DNA of 64,000 nucleotides, taken from Rhodospirillales bacterium (lineage in GTDB: Bacteria; Pseudomonadota; Alphaproteobacteria; Rhodospirillales; Casp-alpha2). Below are positions 46,528-61,690 of this stretch, piece by piece. The stretch lies in the NCBI GenBank assembly GCA_021775095.1, contig JAJFII010000110.1:1-64000 (forward strand). Reading direction: 5' to 3'. Under the pieces are notes generated by a model that worked only from the letters and a program-made list of their open reading frames with translations, made no database searches and was not told the origin of the DNA. Positions within the stretch are counted from its first letter, which is position 1. Each line of letters starts with the position of its first letter. Both the position numbers and the translations under genes were made by a program.

Positions 46528-46782
46528 TTAATCTTCGTCATCCGTATCCTTCTCGGGTTCGAACAACTGAACCGGTGTCGATGGCATGACCGTCGAGATT
46601 GCGTGTTTATAAACCAGTTGGGTATGTCCGTCGCGGCGCAGAAGTACGGAAAAGTTATCAAACCACGTTACTATTCCCTGTAATTTTACACCATTTACTA
46701 AAAACACAGTGACCGGAGTTTTTTGTTTTCTTATGTAATTTAAAAAAACGTCTTGAACGTTCTGGGACTTTTCTGTTGGCAT
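46528..46782 (-). CDS. hfq: RNA chaperone Hfq
   Basis: An 84-residue hexameric RNA-binding protein that pairs small RNAs with messages. The Sm1 motif is [16 protein letters not shown], and Sm2 ends with Y-K-H-A-I-S-T. The proximal-face Q-residue in S-Q-N-V-Q-D is present. The tail is short and acidic (P-E-K-D-T-D-D-E-D). ATG 46782 follows GGGGAGG; upstream in-frame codons are not needed. Its promoter likely lies in the 143-base gap after the HAD gene. Confidence 0.97.
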
Positions 46783-61181: not shown

Positions 61182-61526
61182 TTGACCGCATCTGATAGGC
61201 CAGACGAACCTGTAAAACCAAAGTTTTTAATGATTTGTGTAAACCGTCGGTTTCGCGCCGATGAAGCGTCCTGCGCTGCGCGCGGCAGTCAGGCCCTGGC
61301 TGACGCCCTGGAAACGGGCATCCGCCAGCGTCGTATAGATATAAAGACCGAGCGCAGCGTCTGTTTGGGTCATTGCCAAGTTGGGCCGAGTATCCGTCTG
61401 GCACCGGGCGGTCGGTTTATTCTCGGAAAAACCCTGGACGACGTAAATGACCTGCTTGATGAGTTGCAACTGATCTGTGGGACCTGCGACGACGTGCTGC
61501 TGCCGCTGGACCTGCTGGGGTCATGA
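61182..61526 (+). CDS. Thioredoxin-like [2Fe-2S] ferredoxin-type protein
   Basis: A 114-residue soluble protein. Four cysteines, C19, C31, C61 and C65, in the spacing C-x11-C and C-x3-C (V-C-L-G-H-C-Q-V-G-P) match the thioredoxin-fold [2Fe-2S] ferredoxins. A second pair at C98 and C101 (I-C-G-T-C) is additional and could be redox active. The start is TTG 61182 with TGAGGA upstream. Its electron partner is unknown. Confidence 0.8.
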   Translation: MTASDRPDEPVKPKFLMICVNRRFRADEASCAARGSQALADALETGIRQRRIDIKTERSVCLGHCQVGPSIRLAPGGRFILGKTLDDVNDLLDELQLICGTCDDVLLPLDLLGS

Positions 61527-61555
61527 ATTGCGAAGTTGATTTAATTTTAACGTCC

Positions 61556-61571
61556 TGTGACGCAGGTCACA
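61556..61571. promoter_or_regulatory. CRP/FNR-superfamily binding site
   Basis: TGTGA-CGCAGG-TCACA is an exact match to the E. coli CRP consensus half-sites with six-base spacing. It lies between two convergent genes, so it cannot serve either as a normal promoter; the downstream AAGAAT at 61593-61598 has the class II geometry (centre 41.5 bases before 61605). Confidence 0.55.
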
Positions 61572-61604
61572 GCGAACTTCCTGCAATTGGTCAAGAATGC
61601 AGGT

Positions 61605-61690
61605 GTTGGAAGGGTTTCTAAATCGATCCCCTTCCCTTCCCTCAAGAGCACTAACTTAAGGTCGGGTTTCAAAACCCGACCTTTTTTTTA
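61605..61690 (+). ncRNA. Candidate CRP-controlled small RNA
   Basis: Predicted 86-base transcript with no open frame. A possible -10 (AAGAAT, 61593-61598) lies downstream of a CRP-type box, and the RNA would end at the intrinsic terminator 61659-61689. The middle holds the pyrimidine run CCCCTTCCCTTCCCTC (61628-61643), a good anti-Shine-Dalgarno match, part of which can pair with GGAAGGG at 61608-61614. Hfq, encoded in this window, could use the terminator U-tail. The evidence is positional only; no expression data exist here. Confidence 0.45.
61659..61689 (+). terminator. Intrinsic terminator ending the candidate small RNA
   Basis: AGGTCGGGTTT at 61659-61669 pairs with AAACCCGACCT at 61672-61682, followed by eight T residues. 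The A-rich flank lets it terminate the eamA transcript from the other side as well; its T-run overlaps the eamA stop codon. Confidence 0.9.

Follow-up and report, generated by a model that had tools for sequence, protein, structure and literature searches.

The nearest described alphaproteobacterial RNAs to the one reported here are the alpha-r8 RNAs (RF00519), represented by MmgR of Sinorhizobium meliloti and SisA-D of Caulobacter. They are short RNAs composed of a hairpin, an exposed pyrimidine anti-Shine-Dalgarno core and a terminator, they occur in duplicated copies in some genomes, and the known cases have Hfq partners (PMC12559287, PMC7143759). SisA-D act via a 10-mer with an anti-Shine-Dalgarno signature (PMC12559287), and MmgR has effects on PHB storage (PMC7143759). 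No motif is common to the SisA-D promoters, and mmgR is under NtrC and AniA, whereas the RNA reported here has a fixed CRP box.

Other described RNAs also share features with this one. The CcsR or cuckoo RNAs of Rhodobacter carry the motif CCUCCUCCC in hairpin loops and are under RpoH-type control. Spot 42 of gammaproteobacteria is a CRP-linked regulatory RNA of carbon metabolism and is repressed by CRP, while CyaR (RyeE) of enterobacteria is a CRP-activated small RNA that represses mRNAs near the ribosome site. To our knowledge, most of the known CRP-linked small RNAs are from gammaproteobacteria. The CRP dependence of CyaR is covered in references listed in PMC3927594.

The window analysed here is a stretch of 64,000 nucleotides from a Rhodospirillales bacterium (assembly GCA_021775095.1, contig JAJFII010000110.1). 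Close to its end lies what is almost certainly, judging from its sequence, a real small regulatory RNA gene activated by a CRP-type regulator. The RNA is almost certainly a member of a previously unlisted family found across one alphaproteobacterial order. Very probably, this is a stand-alone CRP-activated gene whose product carries an anti-Shine-Dalgarno seed and acts in trans, probably with dependence on Hfq. A preliminary description had proposed a CRP-dependent small RNA with an anti-Shine-Dalgarno run, and this is the best-supported reading. We found no description of a CRP-linked small RNA conserved through an alphaproteobacterial order. A search of largely open-access literature for the core sequence or for a CRP-dependent alphaproteobacterial RNA also returned none, and Rfam holds no family that matches the RNA at cut-off.

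Anatomy of the locus

The gap at 61527-61687 separates a plus-strand ORF, ending at 61526, from a minus-strand EamA transporter ORF with its stop at 61688. The features of the RNA unit, together with the hfq gene of the same window, are as follows.

61556-61571, plus strand: putative CRP-type operator with the sequence TGTGACGCAGGTCACA, its centre at -41.5 as in class II promoters
61593-61598, plus strand: -10-like hexamer AAGAAT, which aligns in sequence with CACAAT / CATAGT / CATTAT of homologs
61605-61690, plus strand: inferred small RNA of about 80-86 nt, its start set by box geometry and its 3' end within the T run
61608-61635, plus strand: 5' hairpin GGAAGGG...CCCUUCC, drifting in sequence among relatives with pairing kept
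61636-61657, plus strand: single-stranded linker with invariant UUCCCUCAAGAGCAC..AACU, the proposed anti-Shine-Dalgarno seed
61658-61690, plus strand: Rho-independent terminator AAGGUCGGGUUU/AAACCCGACCUU and T run, the hairpin being kept with different sequence in homologs
46567-46758, minus strand: hfq (Pfam PF17209, E = 1.4e-31), not linked to the RNA

The operator matches TGTGA-N6-TCACA at 10 of 10 positions. The preliminary description had pointed to a perfect CRP consensus in a convergent gap, and this holds: it is the sole perfect site in the window, where shuffled sequences give an expectation of 0.09. The 5.9-Mb genome has seven such sites in all, against four places for a backwards control pattern. 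A CRP dimer centred at -41.5 represents the class II activator arrangement, in which a -35 element is unnecessary. The centre of the box lies 41.5 bases before 61605, which places the start of the RNA near that position; the class II distance itself rests on this inferred start. The hexamer AAGAAT agrees with TATAAT at four of six positions and is a poor -10 in the copy of the window. It was not picked up by a generic promoter scan, which is unsurprising where a -35 element is lacking. The spacing of box, -10 and start is as originally claimed.

The genome (G000) has six further perfect TGTGA-N6-TCACA sites (loci L339-L344), on contigs C24, C55, C66, C103 and C110. One of them, at C66:142613, has a class III cyclase domain (C66:144253) at a distance of about 1.6 kb, an arrangement reminiscent of the CgrA system with its autoregulated cyclase genes.

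The 86-nt RNA has a predicted folding energy of -31.3 kcal/mol, 5.2 standard deviations better than shuffled sequences (z = -5.2). The terminator, which the preliminary description had called strong, comprises 11 pairs at 61658-61683 followed by the T run. When 37 sequences were folded individually, the terminator hairpin was present in all of them and the 5' hairpin in nearly all. An RNAalifold consensus computed on a MAFFT alignment retained the 5' hairpin only, because terminator lengths differ between homologs; the terminator was therefore assessed sequence by sequence. In the 5' hairpin, three of the six consensus pairs retain pairing via changes on both sides. Both stems thus vary in sequence yet keep their pairing, and the linker is invariant: among 33 aligned sequences, almost all invariant columns lie in it (UCCCUUCCCUCAAGAGCAC..ACU), and UUCCCUCAAGAGCA is the remainder that is conserved among the most remote model matches. 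The mean unpaired probability of the linker is 0.73 over 37 homologs and 0.82 in the window RNA.

These folds refine the idea that a pyrimidine run in the RNA could block ribosome sites. The run, CCCCTTCCCTTCCCTC, is present at 61629-61644 and the anti-Shine-Dalgarno reading is the best supported one, but the first half of the run is the 3' arm of the 5' hairpin. The exposed and conserved part of the pyrimidine region, and hence the likely seed, is UUCCCUCAAGAGCAC.

A small peptide encoded by the conserved core was considered and rejected: in 28 of 37 homologs no ORF spans the core, and the frames differ among the others.

Distribution of the RNA and its CRP box

A DNA search of 100 related genomes yielded convincing homologs within the genus, the family and the order, and those read out have the same order of parts as the unit of the window. 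The TGTGA-N6-TCACA box was found in 39 of 39 core homologs with upstream sequence (32 perfect, seven with one mismatch), although these are not 39 independent cases, several being from closely related species. In all of them the distance from the box places the 5' hairpin a few bases after +1, and many have a -10 of the CACAAT / CATAGT / CATTAT type. Thus, the box and the linker portion of the pyrimidine run are conserved in close relatives, as the preliminary description had asked of a genuine gene.

A scan of 84,980 species with the exact pattern TCCCTTCCCTCAAGAGCAC-N3-CT returned 34 stretches. Most come from records under the names Rhodospirillales or Rhodospirillaceae, and the rest from unplaced bins of alphaproteobacteria or proteobacteria; the set includes Magnetovibrio blakemorei MV-1 and Defluviicoccus. 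The former provides a culturable carrier of the RNA. A covariance model, R1, was built from 33 homolog sequences of the RNA alone, the promoter and box being excluded. It matches the window at 61604-61690 with 79.8 bits, the window being among the 33 sequences of the model. The covariance search in relatives that had been suggested at the outset is positive: R1 has matches in 128 of 317 genomes and 64 of 115 genera of the order, or in 82 of 212 when only genomes of good quality are counted. Among 385 genomes sampled across the class, there is almost nothing outside the order; three weak matches were read, and none has the core plus the box.

The 80 bases upstream of 65 medium- and low-score R1 matches provide a separate view of the association. 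A box matching at least 9 of 10 positions is present upstream of 48 of these 65 remote matches, 36 of the boxes being perfect. In shuffled upstream stretches, matches of at least 9/10 occur in 9 of 3250 (0.3%) and of 10/10 in 0 of 3250. Since R1 contains no promoter, this enrichment validates the R1 matches and at the same time links the RNA with the box. The unit shows order-wide conservation of its box, spacing, hairpin, linker and terminator. The link between RNA and box is strong but not universal: the box is missing in some groups, namely in four of four matches of family f4 and in parts of f19. Either the regulation was lost there or these matches are not true members. The f4 relatives without a box are L168, L178, L180 and L185, and in this family regulation may have changed.

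Copy number also varies. Some Magnetovibrio-type genomes carry two tandem copies of the RNA, each with its own box; in the pairs L043 and L057 the genes are about 150 bases apart and each box is perfect. One genome (G028) has two copies, one with a box and one, L139 on contig C145, without a CRP box; the latter may be a box-less paralog.

The place of the RNA is conserved as well. In many relatives ispDF, a response-regulator-like gene and a small conserved ORF lie upstream, and a STAS gene or a ferredoxin-like ORF often also precedes the RNA, Magnetovibrio-type genomes included. In the window, the ORF at 61182-61526 (plus strand) is small, has four cysteines and the look of a [2Fe-2S] ferredoxin, and adjoins the RNA in many relatives. 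A Pfam search of this ORF returned no family.

Proposed mechanism and rival explanations

The genome encodes hfq, cyclases and CRP-type proteins with an RETVxR recognition helix. There is one hfq gene, and Hfq is likely the chaperone of the RNA. Five clear HTH_Crp_2 proteins are present, two of which (L094 and L096) combine a cNMP-binding domain with an HTH containing the RETVAR helix, like E. coli CRP, and so have a recognition helix matching the box. Class III cyclase domains number 23. TGTGA-N6-TCACA is also bound by CgrA of Rhodospirillum centenum, which responds to cGMP (PMC4681086); therefore, the box cannot distinguish cAMP from cGMP, and the ligand of the activator may be either of them.

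We propose the following sequence of events. A nutrient or developmental signal would raise the level of a cyclic nucleotide, and a CRP/FNR-family dimer with bound cAMP or cGMP would occupy the box at -41.5. The dimer would recruit RNA polymerase in the manner of class II promoters that lack a -35 element, and would activate rather than repress transcription. The transcript would start near 61605, end at the terminator (61658-61690) and have about 80-86 nt, its 5' hairpin and terminator serving as scaffolds. Probable pairing partners of the linker UUCCCUCAAGAGCAC are purine stretches of the GAGGGAA type that lie at the start codons of targets or immediately ahead of them, and this pairing, with predicted binding and help of Hfq, would block ribosome binding and silence the mRNA. 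Such pairing is possible between an exposed UUCCCUC and Shine-Dalgarno regions that resemble GAGGGAA. A predicted promoter, an exposed seed, a terminator with a U tail and a genomic Hfq are all present, as in Hfq-dependent trans-acting small RNAs. Given how little its box varies and how few perfect boxes the genome has, the RNA is probably among the strongest members of the cyclic-nucleotide regulon. It would give this regulon a testable repressive arm in hosts that have many cyclases of unknown purpose. A wider proposal, which we find tentative and rather doubtful, is that cyclic-nucleotide signalling in Rhodospirillales-type bacteria acts post-transcriptionally mainly through this RNA, which would be order-wide and CRP-locked, would possibly answer to cGMP via a CgrA-like protein rather than to cAMP, and would repress many genes with GAGGGAA ribosome sites.

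Three rival explanations deserve attention. The RNA could be a divergent or paralogous alpha-r8 RNA (suhB/MmgR/SisA) that gained a CRP promoter, and not a separate family. No Rfam family matches in the window at the gathering cut-off, and RF00519 (suhB) is the best lenient match at 26.6 bits, the others being low; it also cross-matches another copy of the window RNA family (G001:C98) at 31.3 bits. The two kinds share a layout of weak hairpin, single-stranded anti-Shine-Dalgarno pyrimidine core, ACUU and a Rho-independent terminator after the core (cf. PMC12559287). However, both scores are below the gathering score of 41. The 10-nt single-stranded core of alpha-r8, UUUCCUCCCU, is not the core of the RNA described here, which is CCUUCCCUCAAGAGCAC with UUCCCUCAAGAGCAC exposed; many homologs do contain CCUCCCU, partly within the hairpin. 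Nor does the RNA lie beside the N-formylglutamate amidohydrolase gene typical of alpha-r8, its neighbours being the ferredoxin-like ORF, STAS, ispDF and EamA. Finally, eight genomes (G008, G013, G019, G023, G025, G030, G034 and G056) hold an alpha-r8 RNA over cut-off and a window-type RNA at separate places. Descent from within alpha-r8 thus seems unlikely; the two may share a distant origin. Duplicated copies are a further likeness between the two, and the Hfq partnership known for alpha-r8 is a prediction here. The RNA is filed as a new family of a known kind.

Much less probable is that the RNA is the 3' UTR and terminator of the upstream ferredoxin-like gene, released by processing and having no promoter of its own. 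That ORF shares the strand of the RNA and stops 30 bases short of the box, its homolog precedes the RNA in many relatives, and the terminator would serve it too. Against this, a conserved CRP box and a -10 at promoter spacing separate the ORF from the RNA, STAS or unrelated genes take the upstream position in other relatives, and tandem copies of the RNA carry their own boxes. A slightly better case, still a poor one, can be made for a sponge, that is, an RNA mainly binding another small RNA or a protein instead of blocking mRNAs. In Caulobacter the purine-rich CrfA acts as a sponge of alpha-r8 RNAs, which shows that comparable pyrimidine cores can have RNA partners (PMC12559287), and the mRNA targets of the present RNA are at candidate level. 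The complementarity of its core to a Shine-Dalgarno-like sequence nevertheless points to mRNAs.

The remaining described RNAs compare with this one as follows. The preliminary description had compared the pyrimidine run to the CU-rich loops of CcsR. Both are pyrimidine-rich anti-Shine-Dalgarno motifs of alphaproteobacteria, but the window RNA has a single-stranded UUCCCUCAAGAGCAC and a CRP box, it lacks CCUCCUCCC, the defining motif of the cuckoo RNAs, and it has no Rfam match; kinship is unsupported. With CyaR it shares the CRP link and the Shine-Dalgarno-directed working, both predicted here, whereas sequence and lineage are unrelated as far as Rfam shows: there was no match at gathering, and CyaR was absent from the lenient scan. 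Spot 42 is likewise a CRP-linked regulatory RNA, but CRP represses it, in contrast to the activation proposed here, and the window RNA has no Rfam match.

Candidate targets

Target prediction at purine-rich starts, another suggestion of the preliminary description, gave a suggestive candidate and weak statistics. The pattern TTGAGGGA-N2-9-ATG had more matches than its backwards control, but this excess is no evidence, because the control does not have a Shine-Dalgarno composition. The genes recurring in this search encode a DUF5930 protein (three genomes) and GAPDH (two). In 21 genomes, three of which had been used to pick the gene, the DUF5930 gene ranked among the best 0-21% of genes in pairing, and its z against shuffled leaders ranged from +0.3 to -2.4. 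It is suggestive at most as a target of the RNA and stands outside the main claim. DUF5930 leaders from several genera (L307-L337) have GAGGGA / GAGGGAAGG stretches before the start codon.
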